Shown: piece by piece, positions 3,548 to 41,671 of the stretch
How positions within the stretch are numbered: position 1 is the stretch's first letter
Layout: each line of letters begins with the position of its first letter
Notes under the pieces: model-generated
Told to the model about the DNA's origin: nothing
Seen by the model: the letters and a program-made list of their open reading frames with translations, nothing else
Database searches by the model: none
Program-made: the position numbers and the translations under genes
NCBI RefSeq assembly: GCF_020103725.1
Contig: NZ_JAHXBG010000016.1
Coordinates: 124,001-188,000 of the forward strand
Direction: 5' to 3'
Origin: Hyalangium gracile
Lineage (GTDB): Bacteria; Myxococcota; Myxococcia; Myxococcales; Myxococcaceae
DNA length: 64,000 bases

Positions 3548-4659
3548 TGAAGTACGTGGAGGAGTACCGCGGCGCGCGGGAGGCCCACCGGTATGCCCAG
3601 GCGCTCCGCTCGCTCGTGACCCGGCCATGGACGTTGATGGAGGTGTGCGGAGGGCAGACGCACGCCATCGTCCGCTTCGGGATCGACCAGCTCCTCCCGC
3701 CTGGGCTCACCCTGCTCCATGGCCCCGGCTGTCCGGTGTGCGTCACGCCGGTGGCGCTCGTGGACAAGGCGCTGGCCATTGCCTCGCGGCCGGGCGTCCT
3801 CTTCTGCTCGTTCGGGGACATGCTCCGAGTGCCCGGCTCGGAGAAGGATCTGCTCTCCGCCAAGGCCGCGGGCGCGGACGTGCGCATCGTCTACTCGCCC
3901 ATGGACGCGCTGGCCCTGGCCGAGCGGATGCCGGAGCGGCAGGTCGTCTTCTTCGCCGTGGGCTTCGAGACGACGGCGCCCGCGAGCGCCATGGCCGTCC
4001 ACGAGGCCCGGCGGCGCGGGCTGCGCAACTTCTCCCTCCTCTCGGCCCACGTGCTGGTGCCGCCGGCGATGGAGGCCATCCTCGCCAGTCCCGGCCGGCG
4101 CGTGGACGGCTTCCTGGCCGCCGGCCACGTCTGCACCATCATGGGCACGGAGACGTACCAGCCCCTGGTGCGCGCCTACCGCGTGCCCATTGTCGCCACC
4201 GGCTTCGAGCCGGTGGATCTGCTCCAGGGCATCCACATGTGCGTCGCGCAGCTCGAGGAGGGCCGCGCCGACGTGGAGAACCAATACGCCCGCGCCGTGC
4301 GGACGGCCGGCAACGCGCCCGCCCAGGCCATGCTGCACGAGGTGTTCGAGGTGGTGCCCCGCGCGTGGCGAGGCATCGGTCCCATCCCGGCCAGCGGGCT
4401 GGGGCTCCGCGACCGCTACGCGGACTGGGACGCCGAGCGGAAGTTCCGCGTCGCCGAGGTGGGCGGCCGGGAGGACTCGGAGTGCCAGAGCGGCCAGGTG
4501 CTGCGCGGGCTCCTCAAGCCTCCCGAGTGCCCCGCCTTTGGCACCCGCTGCACGCCGGAGACGCCGCTCGGGGCGACGATGGTGTCCTCCGAGGGAGCGT
4601 GCGCCGCCTACTACCGTTACCGGAGGTCCATCGGGCCATGCGCATCGACATCCCCCTGA
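3544..4659 (+). CDS. hypD: Hydrogenase Fe-S assembly protein HypD
   Basis: 371 aa, standard length. It contains the CGGQTHA motif near residue 35 and [10 protein letters not shown] near residue 60, the conserved cysteines that together with HypC bind the Fe(CN)2CO intermediate, plus C-terminal cysteines ([23 protein letters not shown]) expected to ligate the 4Fe-4S cluster. It accepts cyanide from HypE. An alternative ATG directly follows at 3547. It overlaps hypC by 4 nt and hypE by 22 nt. Confidence 0.95.
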
Positions 4660-5684
4660 GCTGTCCCGTGCCGCTGAAGCACTCCACCGTCCAGCTCGCG
4701 CACGGCGGAGGCGGACGCCTCATGCGCCAGCTCATCGAGGAAGTCTTCCTGGAGCCGCTCCCGGCTTCGCCTCTCATGGAGCGCCATGACAGCGCGGTGG
4801 TGCCGCTCGGCGCGGAGCGACTGGCCCTCACGACGGACTCCTACGTGGTGACGCCTCGCTTCTTCCCAGGAGGAGACATCGGCAGGCTCGCGGTCTACGG
4901 GACGGTGAACGACCTGGCCATGGCCGGTGCGCGCCCGCTGTACCTGAGCGCCGGCTTCATCCTGGAGGAAGGACTGGCGCTGGAGGAGCTGCGCCGGGTG
5001 GTGGCCTCCCTGCGCGAGGCGGCCCGCGAGTGCGGTGTGCGGCTCGTCACCGGAGACACGAAGGTGGTGGACCGGGGCAAGGCGGACGGGCTCTTCCTCA
5101 ACACCACGGGCGTGGGGCGCGTCCCCTCGGGGCGCTCCGTCCACCCTCTGCGCGTGCGGCCCGGGGACGTGGTGCTCGTCTCCGGGGACGTGGGGCGCCA
5201 CGGCATCGCCGTGCTCTCGGTGCGCGAGGGGATCGCCTTCGAGACGCCCATCCAGAGCGACTGCGCGCCGCTCACGCCCCTGGTGGAGGCCCTCTTCGAC
5301 GCGGGGGTGGACGTGCACTGCCTGCGAGACACCACGCGCGGAGGGCTGGCCTCCGCCCTCAATGAGATTGCCCTCGATGGCGGAGTAGGGCTCGTGCTGG
5401 AGGAGTCCGCGGTGCCCGTGGACGAAGGCGTCGAGGGAGCGTGCGAGCTGCTCGGCCTGGACCCGCTCTACGTGGCCTGCGAGGGCCGCATGGTGGCCTT
5501 CGTGCCCGCGCCCCAGGCGGAGGCAGCCCTGAAGGCCCTGCGCGGCCACCCGCTCGGCGCGGGAGCGGCCCGCATCGGCCGTGTCACCGAGGCCCATCCC
5601 GGCCAGGTGTCCCTGCGCACGCGGCTCGGCGGACACCGACTGCTGGACCTGCTCTCCGGGGAGCAGCTCCCGCGCATCTGCTGA
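4638..5684 (+). CDS. hypE: Hydrogenase expression/formation protein HypE
   Basis: 348 aa from the ATG at 4638 inside the end of hypD. It belongs to the PurM/ThiL/SelD ATP-binding superfamily: HGGGGRLM near the N-terminus, a central GDTKVVDRG motif and DTTRGGLA near residue 235. It ends in PRIC, the canonical C-terminal motif whose Cys receives the carbamoyl group from HypF and is dehydrated to thiocyanate with ATP. It is the last hyp gene here; about 300 bp of non-coding DNA follows. Confidence 0.95.
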
Positions 5685-32138: not shown

Positions 32139-32268
32139 GGCAGTGTCCTTCTAGGAAGTGAACGGCGCCGCCATTCTCTCCTACGGCCTGTCGGGGGCCA
32201 GCAGGAAAGCGGGGGATGTCTGACATGTGGCGGTGGCCGACCGGACGCTCCGGGGGTCAGGAGGACAG

Positions 32269-32844
32269 GTGGGTTCCTCTGAGGAACTGACACAGTGGGT
32301 GCGGCGGGCCGCCCGTGGGGAGGAGTCCGCCTTTGGAGAGCTTTATCGGCGCACGAGGCCTCTGGTGGCTCGGCTGACGGCCGGGTTCGCCACGCTGGAT
32401 GCGGACGAGGTGGAAGACGTGATTCAGGAGACTTACGTCCGAGCGTTCAAGGCGCTCCCGAGGCTCAAGGAAGTCTCGGCGTTCGAGGCGTGGCTCCTGT
32501 CCATCGCGCGCAACCGCGCGCGCACCCGCCTGGAGCGCAAGAGCCACCTGCGACGGCTGGAGGAGGAGACCCAGGATCCCCAGCCCGAGGCCGTGCCCGC
32601 CATGCCGGAGGCGCTCCAGGTGGAGCGGGACATCGCCGTGGTGCGTCAACTCATCGCCGAGCTGCCGGACGGCGAGGAGAAGAAGACCGTGCAGCTCTTC
32701 TACCTGGAGGGAGAGCTGTCCGCGCGGGAGATCGCCGAGAAGCTCGGCGTGGGCAAGAGCGCGGTGACCATGCGGCTGGAGCGATTCCGGGCGCGCATCA
32801 AGCGTGAGCTGCTCCGGCGCGTCCTCGCCGGGCGCTGGGAGTAA
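32269..32844 (+). CDS. ECF-type sigma-70 factor
   Basis: 191 aa from GTG 32269, chosen because AGGAGG lies just upstream; a GTG at 32227 would add 14 residues. Sigma2 region (about 10-80) has FGELYRRTRPLV and DVIQETYVRAFKAL; sigma4 (about 125-185) has YLEGELSAREIAEKLGVGKSAVTMRLERFRAR split by helix-turn-helix spacing. No C-terminal extension. The next gene, 3 bp downstream, looks like its anti-sigma factor, so activity is probably controlled by sequestration at the membrane. Confidence 0.9.
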   Translation: MGSSEELTQWVRRAARGEESAFGELYRRTRPLVARLTAGFATLDADEVEDVIQETYVRAFKALPRLKEVSAFEAWLLSIARNRARTRLERKSHLRRLEEETQDPQPEAVPAMPEALQVERDIAVVRQLIAELPDGEEKKTVQLFYLEGELSAREIAEKLGVGKSAVTMRLERFRARIKRELLRRVLAGRWE

Positions 32845-32847
32845 GTC

Positions 32848-33639
32848 ATGAAGCACAAGCACCTCGACGCCCATGCGTTGAAAGCGCTGTCGGCCCGGGA
32901 CCCGGAGGCGGTGGCCTACTTCCGCGAGCACCTGGCCGCGCCGTGCGACGCGTGCGAGGAGTTCCTCGTCCAGGCCCCCGACACGGACCTGCTCGACGGG
33001 CAGCTGGACTCGCTCCTGCTCGGCCTGGCGCCGCCCCGGCAGGCCACGCTGGATGAGGTGGGCTGGATGCGCCTCAAGCGCCAGCTGCGCGCGCCTCGCC
33101 AGCTCGGACGGTGGGCCGGCGTGGCGGGTGCGCTGGCGGCCTGCTTGCTCGCGCTGGTGTTCGTGCCGCGGCTGATGGCGCCCCCCTCGCAGCCGGCGTG
33201 GAGCGGCGTGAAGGGCTCGAGCCGCATCAGCCTGGAGCTGGTCGCGGCGGCGCGGGGCGCGGACGGCCAGCTGCGGCGCCTGGACTCGGGCGCGCCGGTG
33301 TCGCCGGACGACGTGCTGCTGCTGCGCTACCACTCCACCGAGGCCGGCAGCGCCCTGCTCTTCCAGCAGGTGGACAGCGGTGCCCCCGAGCTGCTCGGCA
33401 GCTTCTCGCTGGAGGCCGGGACGCACGATCTGGCCGGCCCGCAGGGCCTCACCGGGGTGAGCCTGTCGGGCGAACAGGGCCCCGTGACGCTGTGGCTGGT
33501 GGCCTCGCCAGCAGGTGAGGAATTGTCGCCAGATGAAGTCCAGACCTCGCTGAAAGGAGGAGCACCTGCCCGGGAGGACAACCCGATGTCCACGGCCAGG
33601 TTCGACGTCTTCGTCGAGAACGGCCAGAATCAGCGCTGA
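32848..33639 (+). CDS. Putative membrane anti-sigma factor
   Basis: 263 aa. The cytoplasmic N-terminus has HLAAPCDACEEF, a near match (His-x4-Cys-x2-Cys) to the zinc-associated anti-sigma motif. One transmembrane helix (GVAGALAACLLALVFVP, about residues 92-110) is followed by a beta-rich outer domain of about 150 residues with no recognised family. Position 3 bp after an ECF sigma gene and 2 bp before the caspase gene supports the anti-sigma role, which is inferred. Confidence 0.7.
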   Translation: MKHKHLDAHALKALSARDPEAVAYFREHLAAPCDACEEFLVQAPDTDLLDGQLDSLLLGLAPPRQATLDEVGWMRLKRQLRAPRQLGRWAGVAGALAACLLALVFVPRLMAPPSQPAWSGVKGSSRISLELVAAARGADGQLRRLDSGAPVSPDDVLLLRYHSTEAGSALLFQQVDSGAPELLGSFSLEAGTHDLAGPQGLTGVSLSGEQGPVTLWLVASPAGEELSPDEVQTSLKGGAPAREDNPMSTARFDVFVENGQNQR

Positions 33640-33641
33640 AC

Positions 33642-35282
33642 GTGAAGCGCTTCTTCCTCATTCTGCTGGGAGCCCTCGCGGCTTGTGCCGGCCCGTCCGC
33701 CCATGAGAAGGGCGGACTGGTCCCGCTCAAGCTCGACGAGGCTGCGTTGTCCAATGCCTACGCACCGCGACGCATCGCGCTGCTGGTGGGCATCTCCGAG
33801 TTCCAGGATCCGCAGTGGAGGAATCTGCGCTACTCGTCGAAGGACGCGCAGGATCTCGCCACCGCGCTGAAGGATCCGGCGCGTGGGCACTTCGATCAGG
33901 TGCGCCTGCTCACGCGGCGGGAGGAGACGACACGCGCATCCATCGTCGCGGCGATCCGCGAGCTCCAGAAGGAGGCCACGCGGCCGGACGACGTGGTGGT
34001 GGTGTACTTCTCCGCGCACGGCACGCTGTCGCGCGATGGGCAGGGCGAGCTCAGGCGCTACCTGGTCACCCACGACTCCTCGTACCAGTCCATTCCGCAG
34101 ACGGCGCTGTCCATGGACGTGCTGAAGGCGGAGTTCGACAAGCTGCCCAGCCGGCGCCGGCTCATGGTGCTGGCCACCTGTCACAGCGGCAGCGGCAAGT
34201 CGCTGCTGCCCAAGGAGCTGGAGACGGAGCTGGCCGGCATCAAGTCCGGCTTCTACGCGCGCCCCCTGGAGGAGGCCAGCCGCGCCTCCATGGTCTTCGC
34301 CGCCTGCGACTGGGGCGAGACGGCCCGCGAGGACGAGGGGCTGCGCAACGACATCTATACGCACTTCCTCATCGAGGGCCTGAGCGGCACAGCCGACCGC
34401 AACGCGGACGGCGCCGTCACCGCCACCGAGGCGCATGACTTCGCGCGCCGCCGCACCTTCGCCTTCACCCAGGGGCGCCAGCGCCCGTCCGCGGAGATCC
34501 TCGAGGTGGGCGCCGATCCGGTGGTGCTCTCCGGCCGCATCGATCGCCTGGGCCGCCCGGAGCTGTTCTCGTACAACCCGCGGCTGGATGGCTTCACCCT
34601 CAAGGTGGACGGCGAGCCGCGCGCGGAGCTGCCTGGAGGCGCCGCCGTGGTGCCGGGCCGCCGCACCGTGGAGCTGACCAAGGGCGACTCGGTGCTCATC
34701 CGCCGGGAGCTGGAGGTGGCCGTGGGCGAGCGGCTCCCGCTGGAGCAGCTGCTGTCGGACGCCTTCCCCAGCCGCTCCCTCGCGCTGATGGGCGGCATGT
34801 TCTCGTTCGTGGACGGCCGCAGCCGCACGGAGCTGCTGCCCGCCTCTCCCGAGGTGGGCCTGGTGCTGCGCCTGGAGGACCGGCCGCTGCAGGACTTCGG
34901 ACTCCTGTTGGATGTCAGCGGCAGCCGCGGCCGCCGCACCCTCGAGCTCGTCCCCGGCTCCCAGGTTCCCTTCGTCTACACCCGCCTCACCGCGGGTGTG
35001 GGAATGCCCTACCTGTGGCGCTGGGACAAGCTGACGCTCTTCGGTGGGCCGCGCGTGGCCGCTCTGTACCTGGGGCGGTCCTTTGAAGTGGACGCCTTCA
35101 CGGGCGGACAGCACTACTTCACCGTCAGCCCTGGCGTGGTAGGTGGCCTCGTGTGGCGCCTGGGCGAGCGGCTGGAGCTGACTGCCCAGGCGCAGTTGAT
35201 GCTCACGTACGTCGTGGTGGATGGGCGGGGTCAGGCGGTGGGATTCACCGGCGGCCAGGCCGGCATGGGGTACCGCTTCTGA
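33642..35282 (+). CDS. Caspase-like (C14) lipoprotein with PEGA-like and barrel-like C-terminus
   Basis: 546 aa from GTG 33642. Lipobox LGALAACAG. Caspase domain (about 40-300) with catalytic dyad YFSAHGT (His126) and LATCHSGSG (Cys180). Near its end DRNADGAVTATE fits an EF-hand-type calcium loop. A PEGA-like segment follows (GFTLKVDGEPRAELPGG). The last ~150 residues alternate polar and hydrophobic positions, rich in Gly/aromatic, ending GYRF, as in outer-membrane strands. Probably an envelope-anchored cysteine peptidase; substrate unknown. Third gene of the sigma operon. Confidence 0.8.
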   Translation: MKRFFLILLGALAACAGPSAHEKGGLVPLKLDEAALSNAYAPRRIALLVGISEFQDPQWRNLRYSSKDAQDLATALKDPARGHFDQVRLLTRREETTRASIVAAIRELQKEATRPDDVVVVYFSAHGTLSRDGQGELRRYLVTHDSSYQSIPQTALSMDVLKAEFDKLPSRRRLMVLATCHSGSGKSLLPKELETELAGIKSGFYARPLEEASRASMVFAACDWGETAREDEGLRNDIYTHFLIEGLSGTADRNADGAVTATEAHDFARRRTFAFTQGRQRPSAEILEVGADPVVLSGRIDRLGRPELFSYNPRLDGFTLKVDGEPRAELPGGAAVVPGRRTVELTKGDSVLIRRELEVAVGERLPLEQLLSDAFPSRSLALMGGMFSFVDGRSRTELLPASPEVGLVLRLEDRPLQDFGLLLDVSGSRGRRTLELVPGSQVPFVYTRLTAGVGMPYLWRWDKLTLFGGPRVAALYLGRSFEVDAFTGGQHYFTVSPGVVGGLVWRLGERLELTAQAQLMLTYVVVDGRGQAVGFTGGQAGMGYRF

Positions 35283-36343
35283 TGCACCACAGACTGCACA
35301 TCGCGATGGCTGTCGTCCTCGGGGCGCTGGGTACAGGCGGGTGCGGCGGGCTGGCGAATGAACCCTTCCTGTTCGGGACGGTGAGCGGACGGCTCGTCGG
35401 AGCCGACGCGTCCGTGGCGCGTGTGTCCGTCCTGGGCAAGCCCGAGCTGAGCAGCACCGTGAAGGGGGATGGCTCCTTCACGATCGAGCGAGTCCCCGCG
35501 GGCGCCGCCGAGCTGTTCATCATCGCCTCGGCGACGAAGACGCTGCGTCAGCCCCTGATCGTCCAGGGCGGGCAGTCCGTGTCGCTGGGCGAGCTGGAGC
35601 CGAAGGAGGCCAGCTTCCTGTCGGTGCGCGTCAAGTCGCCCGACAACGAGCGGGTGACCGAAGGCCGGCTGGTCTTGGAAGGTACTCCCTCGGAGCAGAG
35701 CCTGGACGACAAGGGGCGGGCGGAGGTCGGCCCGCTGCCAGACGGCTGCTACTCGCTGCTCGTGTCGGCCAGGAGCTTTCCGGACGTGAGCTCCGAGACG
35801 TGCGTGAGCGCCGGCGAGAAGAAGGAAGTGAAGATCAACCTCTCCGAGCCGAGCGGCGGGTGCGCGACCACGGGATGCGTGGACGACTACCAGTGCGCGC
35901 AGAGCGGCCGGTGCGTCGAGTGCCTCGAGGACACACACTGCGGCCCGGGCCTCTCCTGCCGTGGCTTCCGGTGCGAGGGCGGGCCGCTCTGCACGCCGTG
36001 CACCGGGGACTGGACGTGCCAGGCTGGCTCGAGCTGCCAGGCGCTGCCCGAGGGCAACGCGTGCGTGGGTCGGTGCGGCAACGGCGAGACGTGCAAGGGC
36101 GGCTTCACGTGCCAGAGCGGCCGCTGCATGCCCAACTCGGCGCAGTTCTCCGGGTGCGGCGGCTACCGTGGGGTCGGCGCCTCCTGCGGGACGGATGATG
36201 CGATCTGCCGCGGCATGGGCATCATCGAGGGCGCCTGTGTCGAGGGCACCTGCACCCTGCGGTGCAAGTCCGACGACGAGTGCCCGGAGGGGTATTCCTG
36301 CAAGGGCGGCTCCGGCGGCAAGGCGTGCCGGCTGGAGAACTGA
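35282..36343 (+). CDS. Cysteine-rich lipoprotein with carboxypeptidase-regulatory-like domain
   Basis: 353 aa; its ATG shares one base with the stop of the caspase gene (TGATG). Lipoprotein signal LGTGGCGG. Residues about 25-200 are beta-rich, with a GDGSFTIERVPAG phrase typical of carboxypeptidase-regulatory-like (transthyretin-fold) domains. The rest (about 205-350) has over 20 cysteines in repeating CxxxxxCxxxxxC spacing (CVECLEDTHCGPGLSC), like the Cys-rich repeats common in myxobacterial surface proteins. Fourth and last gene of the ECF sigma operon. Confidence 0.78.
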   Translation: MHHRLHIAMAVVLGALGTGGCGGLANEPFLFGTVSGRLVGADASVARVSVLGKPELSSTVKGDGSFTIERVPAGAAELFIIASATKTLRQPLIVQGGQSVSLGELEPKEASFLSVRVKSPDNERVTEGRLVLEGTPSEQSLDDKGRAEVGPLPDGCYSLLVSARSFPDVSSETCVSAGEKKEVKINLSEPSGGCATTGCVDDYQCAQSGRCVECLEDTHCGPGLSCRGFRCEGGPLCTPCTGDWTCQAGSSCQALPEGNACVGRCGNGETCKGGFTCQSGRCMPNSAQFSGCGGYRGVGASCGTDDAICRGMGIIEGACVEGTCTLRCKSDDECPEGYSCKGGSGGKACRLEN

Positions 36344-36355
36344 CCGCGGGAGCGG

Positions 36356-37069
36356 CTACGGCGCGAGGACGAGCCCCTCGCGAGCGCAGGCTTCCACGGC
36401 CTTTCGCACCTCGATCTCCGCTACGCCCGTCGCCGCCGCCACGGCCTGCGTCGAGAGCCCCTCCACCGCCATCTTCAGCACCAGCAGCGTGCGCTCCTGG
36501 GCCGCCGCGAACCAGGTGTTGAGCTCCCGCGGGTGCCGCCACAGCAGCGCCATCTCGTCACCCGCGGCGGGAGCCGACGCCCTGCCCCGCTGACGCACGA
36601 AGGCGCAGAGCTGGAACGGGTGCTGGAGCACCGTGAGCGTGGGGTTCACCGTGAGCCGCTCCACGCGCTCCGGCACCTGCTCCTCCGAGGCGTACACCGC
36701 CCAGTCGGCCCACTCGAAGCGCGCGAGCGCGGGGACGAACTCCGGCAGCCCTCGCGCCTGCGCCACGTCCGCCACGAAGGCGGGGAAGGCCTCGCCCATG
36801 CGGTTCATCTCGTAGTGACGCCCGGGGCGCGTGGCGGTGTACGTCTCCACCAGCTGCTCCCAGCGCTCGGGCCCGACGCTCTCCTGGGTGATGGGGAAGA
36901 GCTTCTCGAGCGCGCCACGCACGTGCCCGCGCACGAACCGGCCATAGATGGCCACGCGCGAGGGCGCCGCGTCCCAGCCCGGGTGCGCGGCGCGCAATTG
37001 CTCCACGCTGGAGCCGCCGCCCAGGTAGTCCGCCATCGAGTCGAAGAAGTGCCGCAGCCCGGGCTTCAT
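36356..37069 (-). CDS. DUF2063-family MNIO partner protein (HvfC/BufC-like)
   Basis: 237 aa from ATG 37069, overlapping the MNIO gene by 4 nt. The N-terminal helical domain (MKPGLRHFFDSMADYL, then RVAIYGRFVRGHVRGALEKLFPITQ) is the HvfC/BufC-type DUF2063 domain. In known systems this protein binds the RiPP precursor and delivers it to the MNIO oxidase. The C-terminal half ends in a winged-helix-like part (GLSTQAVAAATGVAEIEV). Function here is inferred from the family and the intact precursor-MNIO-DUF2063 order. Confidence 0.85.
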   Translation of the reverse strand: MKPGLRHFFDSMADYLGGGSSVEQLRAAHPGWDAAPSRVAIYGRFVRGHVRGALEKLFPITQESVGPERWEQLVETYTATRPGRHYEMNRMGEAFPAFVADVAQARGLPEFVPALARFEWADWAVYASEEQVPERVERLTVNPTLTVLQHPFQLCAFVRQRGRASAPAAGDEMALLWRHPRELNTWFAAAQERTLLVLKMAVEGLSTQAVAAATGVAEIEVRKAVEACAREGLVLAP

Positions 37070-37911
37070 CGCGCCACCTCCCGCAGCACGGCGCGCGCCT
37101 GATCGGCCTGATCCAGCACCGCCTCCATGGATGGGATGTCCTGATCCCACTCGATCAGCGTGGACACCGGCCCGGTGCGCTCCAGCACGTAGCGGTAGAG
37201 CGACCAGACCTCGTCGCAGACCGGCGCCCCGTGCGTGTCGATGATGACGTCCGGGTAGCGCTCGTGGCCCGCCAGGTGGATCTGCACCACGCGCTCCAGG
37301 GGCAGCGCGTCCACGAAGGCCCGCGGGTCATACCCGTGGTTCTGAGCGTTGACGTAGATGTTGTTCACGTCCAGCAGCAGCCCGCAGTCGGCCTGCTCGA
37401 CCACGTGCCGCAGGAAGGCGGCCTCCTCCAGCGTGCCGCCCGGCATGCGCGCGTAGTAGCTGGGGTTCTCCAGCAGGAAGGGGCGCCCCACCCGCGCCAT
37501 CACCTCGCGCACGCGCGGCACCACGTACTCGACCGCCTCCTCGTTGAAGGGCAGCGGGAGCAGATCATGCAGGTGGATGCCCCCCAGCCGCGAGTAGCAC
37601 AGGTGATCCGAGAAGAAGGGCGCGTCCACCCTCCGCACGAGCGCCCCGAGCCGGGTGACGTAGTCCTCGTCCAGCGGATCCGGCCCGCCGATGTTCAGCC
37701 CCACGCCGTGCGGCAGCACCGTCCAGCGCTCGGCGCACGCGTCCAGGGCCCGCTGCGAGCGGCCGCCCAGGGTGAGGAAGTTCTCGGGGATGATCTCCAG
37801 CCAGTCGAGCGCCCGCTCGGTGCGCGGCAGGGCCTCGTAGAAGCCGCGGCGCAGGCCGATGCCGGCTCCCAGGGGGGTGAGTCCATGCCTCTGCGCGTAG
37901 CTCTGGGACAC
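37066..37911 (-). CDS. Multinuclear non-heme iron oxidase, DUF692 (HvfB/BufB-like)
   Basis: 281 aa from GTG 37911 (GAGGA seven bases upstream). A GTG at 37941 is in frame but lies at the foot of a terminator-like hairpin, so I favour the later start. TIM-barrel MNIO with typical metal-ligand segments: SDHLCYS, FLLENPSYYA, LLLDVNNIYVNAQNHG, IHLAGHE and IDTHGAPV. These enzymes oxidise precursor cysteines, for example to oxazolone-thioamide groups, making copper-binding peptides. The precursor gene lies 81 bp upstream. Confidence 0.9.
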   Translation of the reverse strand: MSQSYAQRHGLTPLGAGIGLRRGFYEALPRTERALDWLEIIPENFLTLGGRSQRALDACAERWTVLPHGVGLNIGGPDPLDEDYVTRLGALVRRVDAPFFSDHLCYSRLGGIHLHDLLPLPFNEEAVEYVVPRVREVMARVGRPFLLENPSYYARMPGGTLEEAAFLRHVVEQADCGLLLDVNNIYVNAQNHGYDPRAFVDALPLERVVQIHLAGHERYPDVIIDTHGAPVCDEVWSLYRYVLERTGPVSTLIEWDQDIPSMEAVLDQADQARAVLREVAR

Positions 37912-37930
37912 GTGGAGATCCTCTGACAGG

Positions 37931-37972
37931 GAAAACAACACGGGCGGCGGGAAGTCTCCTCCCCACCGCCCG
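37931..37972 (-). terminator. Terminator-like attenuator between precursor and MNIO genes
   Basis: On the minus strand GGGCGGTGGG and CCCGCCGCCC form a 10-bp stem (one G-U) around GAGGAGACTT, followed directly by TGTTGTTTT. This is a good intrinsic terminator, placed about 20 bp after the precursor stop and just before the MNIO gene. Partial read-through would make precursor mRNA abundant and modifying-enzyme mRNA scarce, common in RiPP clusters. Confidence 0.65.
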
Positions 37973-37991
37973 CGTCAGCTACGGCAAGTGA

Positions 37992-38228
37992 CTACTTGTT
38001 GCCGCTGCAGGAACCGGAGCCGCACTTGCCCTCGCCGCCCTTCTCCTGGGTGGCGGCGGGGGTGCCGGCCGCGTCGGTGCCCTCGGGCGCCTTCTGGCCG
38101 CTGCACTGGGAGTCAGCGCCCTTGGCCTCGGTGGCGGCGCCCTCGGAGGCCTTGTTGGACGCACAGCCGGTGGCCAGCGCGCCGAGAGAGAGGGTACCGA
38201 CGATGGCAGCCAGAGCCTTGACGTTCAT
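37992..38228 (-). CDS. Cysteine-containing RiPP precursor (HvfA/bufferin-like), lipoprotein-type signal
   Basis: 78 aa. N-terminal signal MNVKALAAIVGTLSLGALATGC: ATGC fits a lipobox, unusual beside the signal-peptidase-I leaders expected of bufferins. The rest is Ala/Gly/Glu-rich with three cysteines after the signal: SQCSG mid-way and GEGKCGSGSCSG at the C-terminus. EGKCG matches the modified repeat of HvfA-type copper metallophores. With MNIO and DUF2063 genes immediately downstream it is the likely substrate. Its leader has AAAGGA and a tandem repeat. Confidence 0.8.
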   Translation of the reverse strand: MNVKALAAIVGTLSLGALATGCASNKASEGAATEAKGADSQCSGQKAPEGTDAAGTPAATQEKGGEGKCGSGSCSGNK

Positions 38229-38928: not shown

Positions 38929-39026
38929 GGGAGCCTCTCTTCTACGGATGACGGGAGCACCGTGGATGCATGTTCTACGCAGAGGCCACCTCAGCGGTTA
39001 CGGGCCGGAATCTTCCGCCGCGTCTA

Positions 39027-40454
39027 CTACTGCGCGCTGCTGGCGCTCTGTCCGTCCAGTGCCTCACGCAACAGGCTGTCCCGAGCCGGTTGAAGCTTGA
39101 CGCCGCCCGGGGTGGGCGTCACGCCGAGTTCTTCTAGCAAACCTTCAAGCCCTGCAAAAGCCGAACGATGGAGTTCCTCGTCCAGGATCCGCTGGAACAG
39201 GGGGCCTCCGGCCACCGCGTCCACCGCCGCCCCATAGGCCCCTACAGTGGCGGTGGATCCTTGCGTGGCCAACAATTCCAGGACGTGATCCAGCCCGCGC
39301 GCGTTGCCCGTGGCGCGTCGCAGCTCCACGTCGATGCGCAGGGCCAGGAACGCGCCCACCCAGTAGATGCCCGGCGGCTGGCTCTCGTCGATCATCTCCT
39401 GCGTGGTGCGCCCGTCGGCCTGCTCGCGGCCACGGCGGAAGCCCTTCACCAGCTCGTGCCAGGCGCGCTCGGCGGACTGTCTGCCGGAGCGGGCGCGCGC
39501 CACCTCCGTGAGATAGGTGGCCAGCCCCTCGGAGATCCAGGGCGTGCGCGGAAGGATCGTCGGGTGGGTCAGGTGCAAGAGCTCGTGGAGGGCCACCCAG
39601 TCGCCCACGAGCGCGGCGGGCGTGGTGTCCTGCCCCACCAGCAAGGCGACGCTTGGAGGAGAGCTCCACAGCACCATGCCGAAGACGTTGGCCTCGGCGC
39701 GGCCCGGCACGGGGTAGACGACGACGCTGACGCGCGGGTGCGGGAAGTTGCGCCGGATCGTCCGCACCTCCTCGCCCGTCTGCCGGAGCCACTCGCAGAT
39801 CTGCGCATCCGTGAGGTGCGACATCCGTCCGACGATGGCCACATCCATCACCGCGTCCGTGAGCCGACTCTGGCAGCGCCGCCCACCGAAGCCGTGAACG
39901 CCCGAGTCCACGAGATCCTCGGCGGTGAGGCGATACAGCCCTCCGGGCCCGGCCTGCCATGGCAGCAGCGCCTCCACGCCCTGCACCGACAGCTCCACCC
40001 GCAGCCTGGGATCCGCCACGCGCGGGCGCATCAGCCAGGAGCGCCCGGTGACGAGCCAGTCGTCCCCCTGCCCCAGGCCGCCGGAGAAGCTCCACCAGCG
40101 TCCGCGGCCACGCGCTCCCAGCGGATAGTGGTAGCGCAGGAAGCGTGTGTTGGCCGGCACGCTCATGCCCTTCTCGCGCACAGGCAGCGCGCGGGCGTGC
40201 CCCGACTCGCTGTAGGCCCAGAGGGTCTCCACGGCGCCGTCCTGGGTGAAGAGGAACTCTCGCGGCGCGTTGTGGACGAGCACCACCTCCACGTCGAGCC
40301 CATGAGTGGGCTCGCGCGTATAGGTGACGTTGTAGCGCAGGCTCGAGGCCTCGCTCGTGGCGGCGGACGGACGCACGGCCTCCCTGCGACAGGAGGCCAG
40401 CCCCACGGCGAGGACGCTCAGGCACAGCCAGTGGACAGCGGGCCGCCCCGACAT
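39027..40454 (-). CDS. Peptidase-MA-like metalloprotease lipoprotein
   Basis: 475 aa. Lipobox AVGLASCRR. Beta-rich N-terminal half with VTYTREPTHGLDVEVVL (about 45-60), resembling M61-type N-terminal sequence. The catalytic part has HELLH (His290, Glu291, His294) and 15 residues later Glu309 in WISEGLATYL, the HExxH...EG pattern of the Peptidase_MA-like gluzincins. Its ATG shares one base with the stop of the DUF1015 gene (TGATG), so the two are translationally coupled. Substrate unknown. Confidence 0.8.
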   Translation of the reverse strand: MSGRPAVHWLCLSVLAVGLASCRREAVRPSAATSEASSLRYNVTYTREPTHGLDVEVVLVHNAPREFLFTQDGAVETLWAYSESGHARALPVREKGMSVPANTRFLRYHYPLGARGRGRWWSFSGGLGQGDDWLVTGRSWLMRPRVADPRLRVELSVQGVEALLPWQAGPGGLYRLTAEDLVDSGVHGFGGRRCQSRLTDAVMDVAIVGRMSHLTDAQICEWLRQTGEEVRTIRRNFPHPRVSVVVYPVPGRAEANVFGMVLWSSPPSVALLVGQDTTPAALVGDWVALHELLHLTHPTILPRTPWISEGLATYLTEVARARSGRQSAERAWHELVKGFRRGREQADGRTTQEMIDESQPPGIYWVGAFLALRIDVELRRATGNARGLDHVLELLATQGSTATVGAYGAAVDAVAGGPLFQRILDEELHRSAFAGLEGLLEELGVTPTPGGVKLQPARDSLLREALDGQSASSAQ

Positions 40455-41671
40455 CAGAACAGGTGCAGCACCAGCCCGCTGCGCAGCTTGGGCTCGAACC
40501 ACGTGGACTTGGGCGGCATGATCTCGCCCGCGTCCGCGATGGCCATGAGCTGATCCAGGCTCGTCGGGAAGAGCGAGAAGGCCACCTTCCACGCGCCGCC
40601 GTCCACCAGCCGCTCCAGCTCCTCCATGCCGCGGATGCCGCCGACGAAGTGGATGCGCGAGTCCTTGCGCGGATCGCCGATGCCCAGCAGCGGCTCCAGC
40701 ACGTTGCGCTGGAGGATCGTCACGTCCAGCACGCCCGTGGGCGTCTGCTCGAACGTCCCCGGCTTCGAGGACAGCTGGTACCACTTGCCGCCCAGGTACA
40801 TACCGAACTGGTGCACCTGCCCCGGCTTCTTCTGGGCGCCCTGCTTCACGTCGAAGCGCTCGCCCAGCCGCCGCAGCAGCTCCTCCGGCGACAGCCCGCG
40901 CAGGTCCTTCACCACGCGGTTGTAGTCGAGGATCTGCATCTGATCGTGCGGGAAGATCACCGCGAGGAACCGGTCATGCCCGCCGCCCTCGCCCCGCTTC
41001 TGGCGCAGCGCGTGAACGCGCGAGGCCGCCGCCGAGCGGTGGTGCCCATCCGCGATGTAGAGCGCCGGCACGGCGCGGAAGGCCTCCCGCAGCCGGGCGT
41101 TGAGCTCGCCGCGCACCACCCAGAAGGTGTGGCCGATGCCGTCCTCGGTGGTGAAGTCGTACTCGGGCGCGCCGCGCGTGCCCTCCTCCACCAGCGCGCC
41201 AATGGCCGACGAGGCGCGGTAGGTGAGGAACACGGGCTCGTCATTGCCGCCCAGATCGTCCACGTGCCGCGTGCGGTCGTCCTCCTTGTCCGCGCGCGTC
41301 AGCTCGTGCTTCTTGATGCGGCCGGCGTCGTACTCCTCCACGCTCGCGGCGGCCACCACGCCCGTCTGCACGTGCGAGCCCATCTTCTGCCGGTACAGGT
41401 AGAAGCACGGCTCGGCCTCCTGCCGCAGCCAGCCCTCGCGCTGGAAGAGGGCCAGGTTCTCACGGCCCTTGGCGTACACCTCGTCCGCGTGCTCGTCCGT
41501 GCCGGGCGGCAGATCGATCTCCGGCCGGGAGACGCGGAAGAAGCTGTGAACGTTGCCCTTCGCGTACGCGCGGGCCTCTTCGGCGTTCACCACGTCATAA
41601 GGAGGTGCTACGAGCTTCTGCGCCAGTTCCTTCGGGGGGCGGAGGCCACGGAAGGGACGGAGTTCGGCCAA
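40454..41671 (-). CDS. DUF1015 family protein
   Basis: 405 aa starting at a TTG (MAELRPFRGLRPPKE) with GGAG eight bases upstream. Hallmarks of DUF1015 (PF06245): VAPPYDVVNAEEARAYA, then FYLYRQKMG, ALYIADGHHRSAAASR and ending with HFVGGIRG and MPPKSTWFEPKLRSGLV. The family is widespread and often near serine-biosynthesis genes, possibly acting on a small phosphorylated or amino acid substrate; biochemical role is unproven. First gene of a two-gene unit with the metalloprotease. Confidence 0.88.
   Translation of the reverse strand: MAELRPFRGLRPPKELAQKLVAPPYDVVNAEEARAYAKGNVHSFFRVSRPEIDLPPGTDEHADEVYAKGRENLALFQREGWLRQEAEPCFYLYRQKMGSHVQTGVVAAASVEEYDAGRIKKHELTRADKEDDRTRHVDDLGGNDEPVFLTYRASSAIGALVEEGTRGAPEYDFTTEDGIGHTFWVVRGELNARLREAFRAVPALYIADGHHRSAAASRVHALRQKRGEGGGHDRFLAVIFPHDQMQILDYNRVVKDLRGLSPEELLRRLGERFDVKQGAQKKPGQVHQFGMYLGGKWYQLSSKPGTFEQTPTGVLDVTILQRNVLEPLLGIGDPRKDSRIHFVGGIRGMEELERLVDGGAWKVAFSLFPTSLDQLMAIADAGEIMPPKSTWFEPKLRSGLVLHLF

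Follow-up and report, generated by a model that had tools for sequence, protein, structure and literature searches.

MNIO-DUF2063 clusters have been described as among the most populous RiPP classes. They include the captophorins, thiooxazole metallophores represented by HvfABC and FonABC, for which FonB Arg15 and Arg16 were reported to recognise Glu at position 1 of the core; FonBC modified a FonA peptide with two repeats and left a single-repeat peptide unmodified (PMC13097082). The same paper calls it unclear if the mature product stays a single polypeptide or undergoes proteolysis (PMC13097082). NedA, a lipidated oxazolin with EGKCG motifs, was produced and analysed from NedABC with a shift of −4 Da per motif and was both tri-acylated and modified in E. 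coli (PMC12636315), and approximately 16 % of the Buf2 bufferins are predicted lipoproteins (PMC12452194). As lipidated MNIO RiPPs have thus already been reported, lipidation alone is not new, and the "new subtype" that a sequence-only reading of the present DNA had derived from lipid anchoring is pre-empted by NedA and Buf2.

The locus described here lies on the minus strand of a 64,000-nucleotide stretch of the Hyalangium gracile genome (11.7 Mb in 81 contigs), referred to as the window throughout. In 5'→3' order, the operon encodes a DUF1015 protein, an M61-like peptidase, a YceI protein, a Cys precursor, an MNIO and a DUF2063 protein (Table 1), with start and stop codons overlapping at the DUF1015/M61-like and the MNIO/DUF2063 (ATGA) junctions. 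The sequence-only reading had placed precursor, DUF692/MNIO and DUF2063 side by side between positions 36356 and 38228, which open reading frames and Pfam matches (347 and 56.7 bits) bear out, and its assignment to the bufferin/oxazolin kind of MNIO-RiPP cluster, with a precursor of lipoprotein type, is supported by conservation of the precursor beside MNIO across Myxococcaceae. Its description of the cluster as compact had to be given up, as the operon reaches upstream past that span and the M61-like peptidase, the YceI gene, a promoter-like element and a hairpin also belong to it. The DUF1015 protein, by comparison, is probably a mere operon neighbour. The reported lack of an adjacent DoxX gene holds, all five DoxX matches of the genome sitting on other contigs, and an Rfam search of the region gave no match. 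The closest MNIO relatives stem from a Myxococcaceae MAG (92 % identity) and Hyalangium versicolor (89 %). The operon is also present in a record labelled Comamonas sp. KCTC 72670 (BNCN01000006.1), which nests among Myxococcus with an MNIO identity of 84 % and is probably a mislabelled or contaminated assembly. Just past the cluster, window positions 32227–36343 on the plus strand encode an ECF sigma factor, a candidate anti-sigma factor, a caspase-like lipoprotein and a Cys-rich protein, the gene for the latter converging on the downstream end of the operon; this group is retained in several relatives.

Table 1. Features of the operon in the window (positions in the window; all on the minus strand).
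Feature	Position	Strand	Evidence and remarks
DUF1015 protein	40454..41671	-	stop overlaps M61-like start; adjoins cluster in only some relatives
M61-like gluzincin metallopeptidase, lipobox GLASC, HELLH-x14-E	39027..40454	-	motif, fold, co-conservation
ECF promoter-like element GTAACC-N16-CGTA	38976..39001	-	ends 47 bases 5' of YceI start codon
YceI-family secreted protein, 212 aa	38290..38928	-	80 bits PF04264
RiPP precursor lipoprotein (probable), 78 aa, ATG start	37992..38228	-	MNVKALAAIVGTLSLGALATGC(22) ... EGKC(69)GSGSC(74)SGNK
Lipobox Cys22 codon (LATGC, +2 Ala), predicted SPII cleavage/lipidation site	38163..38165	-	conservation
C-terminal core EGKCGSGSCSGNK, two Cys, C-x4-C spacing	37995..38033	-	C-x4-C in 35/36 homologues
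Hairpin between precursor stop and MNIO start, read as partial intrinsic terminator	37936..37977	-	covariation, z −4.4
MNIO (DUF692/PF05114) peptide oxidase	37066..37914	-	ORF opens 37941, likelier GTG start 37914; 347 bits PF05114
DUF2063 partner (PME1, RRE-type substrate presenter)	36356..37069	-	56.7 bits PF09836; ATG overlaps MNIO stop

The precursor gene, whose ATG (38228) is directly preceded by GAAAGGAA, encodes four Cys residues at positions 22 (lipobox), 42, 69 (in EGKCG) and 74, and not two or three as first counted, leaving three after lipidation. EGKCG, GSCSG and the ATGC lipobox are all present as had been read from the sequence. The statement that EGKCG occurs only once is correct for the exact motif and understates the core, since C74 lies in a degenerate second unit: within EGKCGSGSCSG, the unit SGSCS is degenerate and the five-residue repeat spacing C69–C74 is retained. 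As the cores of near relatives are multi-repeat, with three or four copies of EGKCG (elsewhere EGSCG, EHGCG or similar), we read EGKCG-SGSCS as a core of two units, the second of them degenerate. Across 36 distinct precursor sequences, the lipobox Cys is found in 35, mostly as ATGC and nearly always with Ala at +2, and the same number end in the C-x4-C core. The remaining sequence comes from a MAG labelled Planctomycetota; its leader is longer and carries an MTGC lipobox, and its repeat is longer too. Core alignment shows Gly after the first Cys in 23 and Glu at −3 in 17 of 24 precursors. The leader is conserved at 86 % per column and the linker is variable; outside leader and core the precursor evolves fast (pN/pS 0.82–0.89 versus 0.2–0.27 for the MNIO). 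Pfam profiles, including DUF2282, did not match the precursor, and NCBIfam returned no HvfA match and lipoprotein matches below threshold only.

With its lipobox Cys following a positively charged hydrophobic leader, the precursor is probably a lipoprotein, and acylation is predicted. Signal-peptidase-I type leaders do occur in the sister clusters L107–L109 and L111, so that the lipobox might have arisen by chance in an Ala-rich signal peptide cut by signal peptidase I to give a soluble product as in ordinary oxazolins. We regard this as highly improbable: every member of the clade has Cys at the lipobox position, in contrast to the variable linker that follows, and a lipobox on the M61-like peptidase accompanies that of the precursor, none being recognisable in the sister type.

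Precursor homologues occur in 16 of 59 related genomes, which are exactly those with an MNIO at least 76 % identical, and in none of the 43 others; co-occurrence in 16/16 versus 0/43 is an association beyond chance. Homologous precursors next to MNIO genes, on which the sequence-only reading had staked its case, were thus found in related genomes: 17 of the 24 matches lie directly before MNIO, 7 are away from any MNIO, and several genomes hold such extra, distant copies. One stand-alone copy in Hyalangium versicolor (L078:6215-10807, G006:C24) sits directly upstream of genes for ExbB, ExbD, TonB and an outer-membrane efflux protein, hinting at a link of the precursor to envelope transport. The 7 copies off MNIO loci, together with the sub-threshold NCBIfam lipoprotein matches, could mean that the precursor acts as an unmodified Cys lipoprotein, with the stand-alone copies as the functional form and modification incidental. 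This appears very unlikely given the clade MNIO in every precursor genome, the predominant position directly before it, and a core with mostly Glu at −3 and Gly at +1 as in known MNIO substrates (PMC13097082).

The MNIO assignment, backed by relatives with solved structures as well, is consistent at residue level: the columns of metal-ligand-type His, Asp, Glu and Asn and the catalytic-base Asp are invariant in the alignment. A GLRR motif equivalent to FonB Arg15/Arg16 is retained in the lipobox clade, whereas bufferin-type enzymes carry GLRA or GLRP, and the window enzyme has Gln where FonB has Phe250. It scores narrowly above the NCBIfam cut-off for BufB (318.4 versus 310 bits) and below that for HvfB (288 versus 360 bits). 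A tree of 78 enzymes places it inside a well-supported group from 19 lipobox-type clusters, with the enzymes of L107–L109 and L111 as sister group. Both, together with one EGKCG oxazolin enzyme whose position is uncertain owing to its long branch, are split from the bufferin enzymes with support of 100/99. As relatives were sampled with peptide patterns from the window MNIO, the set of matches is biased towards motifs such as IEWDQDIP. A second MNIO in the same genome (L083, G000:C10:277000-288000, approximately 3821–5595) is preceded by a gene for a 296-residue membrane protein, probably of the known TIGR04222 type, with the Gly/Cys-rich tail SSCGGDSDGGGGGCGGCGGGGD.

For the DUF2063 protein, an AF2 model (pLDDT 90.6) matched 3dee (NGO1945) best in the PDB, followed by TglI of TglHI. 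Neither the DUF2063 nor the M61-like protein had a phmmer match among PDB sequences, the relatives named here for both coming from their folds alone. The DUF2063 protein also scores 77 bits against the N-terminal part of SbtM, a thio(seleno)oxazole radical SAM maturase (TIGR04082), above its HvfC score, and SbtM-type and DUF2063-type maturation systems may share a substrate-binding domain.

In the M61-like peptidase, the zinc-site residues H290, E291, H294 and E309 are invariant across 18 homologues, and its model (pLDDT 89) has 7xyo, an M61 peptidase from Myxococcus fulvus, as top PDB match (E 1.3e-18). The window protein stays under the Pfam PF05299 cut-off of 22 bits (19.3 bits), which the homologues of L108 and L109 exceed (28.6 and 28.8 bits). 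An M61-like protein is held by 70 of the 147 genomes of the class, and all 70 also hold MNIO. In 62 of them both genes lie at most 5 kb apart and always on the same strand (peptidase upstream in 57, downstream in 5), and in the other 8 they lie on different contigs. One could argue that the peptidase is an unrelated neighbour held by general gene-order conservation, since an HTH regulator and DUF1015 are likewise retained in close relatives and 6 of 63 genomes with clade MNIO lack the M61-like gene. The peptidase, however, stays with MNIO in altered orders: in five genomes it follows DUF2063, in L107 it is divergent, and in L105 it persists although the remaining neighbours are absent. The two orders, the divergent case and the persistence in L105 argue against mere gene-order inertia and make an unrelated neighbour an unlikely explanation. 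Wherever the precursor has a lipobox so does the peptidase, and in the sister type (L108, L109) both have signal-peptidase-I-like leaders, although this matching is essentially one phylogenetic contrast and we do not present it as proof. Most plausibly, the lipid-anchored M61-like peptidase would trim, release or turn over the modified peptide.

The YceI-precursor pairing holds even where the two genes sit apart from MNIO (L074–L076). A distant Deltaproteobacteria MAG has a lipobox-type cluster in which a YceI-like gene (L110:6646-7158, 33 % identity) follows DUF2063, the gene order being changed. Upstream of 23 of 37 precursor genes, stand-alone copies included, we found the element GTAACC-N16-CGTA, with 0.0019 occurrences expected per 900-base window; its strict form is absent upstream of the other 14. 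In three Stigmatella-type genomes it precedes a YceI-precursor pair off MNIO (L074–L076), and the precursor at the MNIO locus is without it. An experimentally supported sigma-F site of Caulobacter, GTAACC-N16-CGAA, drives DUF2282-DUF692-DUF2063-DoxX operons under chromate (PMC3511200), and an RpoE7 site of S. meliloti precedes a DUF692-DUF2063 operon (PMC6180224). The likeness to both systems is a GTAAC(C)-N16-CG promoter at DUF692-DUF2063 operons; relative to the Caulobacter site the −35 is identical and the −10 is CGTA instead of CGAA, and the precursor type of these systems differs from that of the window.

Scanning the genome for GTAACC-N16/17-CGTA returned 9 sites compared to 14 for the reversed control, so that the element outside the operon is indistinguishable from chance. 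No sigma gene was recognised beside these genomic sites, and NrsF gave a single weak match in the genome. Two candidate regulators were weighed. The ECF sigma gene at window positions 32227–32844 has no GTAAC-type element near it and its link to the operon is positional only; CorE, the copper sigma factor of M. xanthus, was considered as well, and the cognate sigma factor for the operon was not found.

Between precursor and MNIO lies a hairpin that is retained in nearly all Myxococcaceae relatives, with 93 % of cells paired. It shows two-sided compensatory changes at 5 pairs and a covariation score reached by none of 500 shuffles. Its pattern occurs as a single copy in the 11.7-Mb genome, for which reason a repeat element was rejected. 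The stand-alone YceI-precursor pair in L075 carries the same hairpin with a six-T tail, corresponding to a full-terminator form, while the T run in the window is imperfect and weaker. Terminator-like sites as such are not enriched in the region (3, near the shuffled mean of 2.0). The weaker T run in the operon suggests partial termination, yielding more precursor than enzyme.

We consider it likely that the cluster is related to the captophorins, with a lipid-anchored product, and that it counts neither as a true oxazolin nor as a bufferin cluster. It would work as follows; the chemistry of each step is inferred from relatives. An ECF-type sigma factor would probably transcribe YceI and precursor from GTAACC-N16-CGTA, and the hairpin would stop most transcripts after the precursor and let some continue through MNIO-DUF2063, so that peptide would be plentiful and enzyme scarce. 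The MNIO, an iron enzyme, would receive the precursor from the DUF2063 protein in the cytoplasm and oxidise core C69 and probably C74, most likely to 5-thiooxazoles. The modified peptide would then be exported, lipidated at Cys22 and cut by signal peptidase II, and because of Ala at +2 the lipopeptide should go to the outer membrane, where by analogy it would bind a soft metal, probably copper. There the co-conserved lipid-anchored M61-like peptidase may act on the peptide from outside, with trimming, release or turnover as the most plausible outcomes. The captophorin reading is weakened by the two repeats that FonBC needed, as the second unit in the window is degenerate. Further points against the overall reading are Gln at the place of FonB Phe250, the fast evolution of the precursor outside leader and core, the imperfect T run, the 14 precursors lacking the strict promoter element and the lack of an adjoining copper gene.

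The same modified lipopeptide might serve in redox or sulfur stress or handle other metals such as gold, chromate or cadmium rather than store copper, which is what the sigma-F resemblance points to. YceI is not known as a copper protein, and no copper transporter or other copper gene was seen adjoining the operon. The Caulobacter sigma-F operons with DUF692/DUF2063 respond to chromate and cadmium, and metal resistance there required neither sigma-F nor the DUF692 genes (PMC3511200). Characterised MNIO-PME1 products, on the other hand, all generally bind copper (PMC13097082) and bufferins boost growth under copper stress (PMC12452194), leading us to regard a non-copper role as a possible, though rather doubtful, alternative to the captophorin-like copper peptide. 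Extending the latter, we tentatively propose that a surface M61-type peptidase matures, releases or recycles lipid-anchored thiooxazole metallophores, that one MNIO/DUF2063 pair serves scattered precursors, and that a sigma-F-like ECF regulon ties them into an envelope metal-buffering system specific to myxobacteria, a combination that is conceivable and still falls short of probable.

In the literature searched, M61, YceI, a covarying hairpin or a promoter element of this kind was not found for MNIO clusters, and no paper combined MNIO and YceI. The main text of the MNIO landscape paper mentions neither "peptidase" nor "M61"; the window precursor family may be listed in published supplementary tables. 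Where a metallopeptidase is genetically linked to the cluster, as in this clade, it becomes possible to test if the product is proteolysed. Together, the lipid anchor and the probable location at the outer membrane suggest that this predatory bacterium buffers metal at its cell surface, and the conserved promoter element could lead to the regulon and its inducing signal.

Compared to known systems, the cluster shares the precursor-MNIO-DUF2063 order and an MNIO over the BufB cut-off with the bufferins Buf1/Buf2 (PMC12452194), but its precursor has no DUF2282 and its MNIO does not group with the bufferin enzymes in the tree. "CxxxxC" precursors (PMC12452194; cluster X, PMC12636315) likewise combine a signal or lipoprotein leader and C-x4-C with an adjoining MNIO. 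Lactamase_B_2, reported for 54 % of these clusters, was not seen at the window; the two precursor types may be identical. NedABC of Neisseria dentiae resembles the window in its SPII-type precursor, EGKCG core and MNIO with a DUF2063-type partner, and differs in having three EGKCG repeats instead of one exact and one degenerate unit, and no M61-like peptidase, YceI, hairpin or promoter is described for it in the text consulted (PMC12636315). Of the oxazolin features, repeated EGKCG and scores above the HvfA and HvfB profile cut-offs are missing. From HvfABC/FonABC (PMC13097082) the window is distinguished by these cut-offs, Gln for Phe250, the lipobox leader, the lack of DoxX and the short core. 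It shares with these captophorins the Lys-Cys type core, Arg15/Arg16 and the defining gene content, namely an MNIO with conserved ligands and catalytic Asp and a DUF2063 (PME1) gene in the same operon, and 5-thiooxazoles on the core Cys residues and copper binding would, by analogy, be expected for its product.
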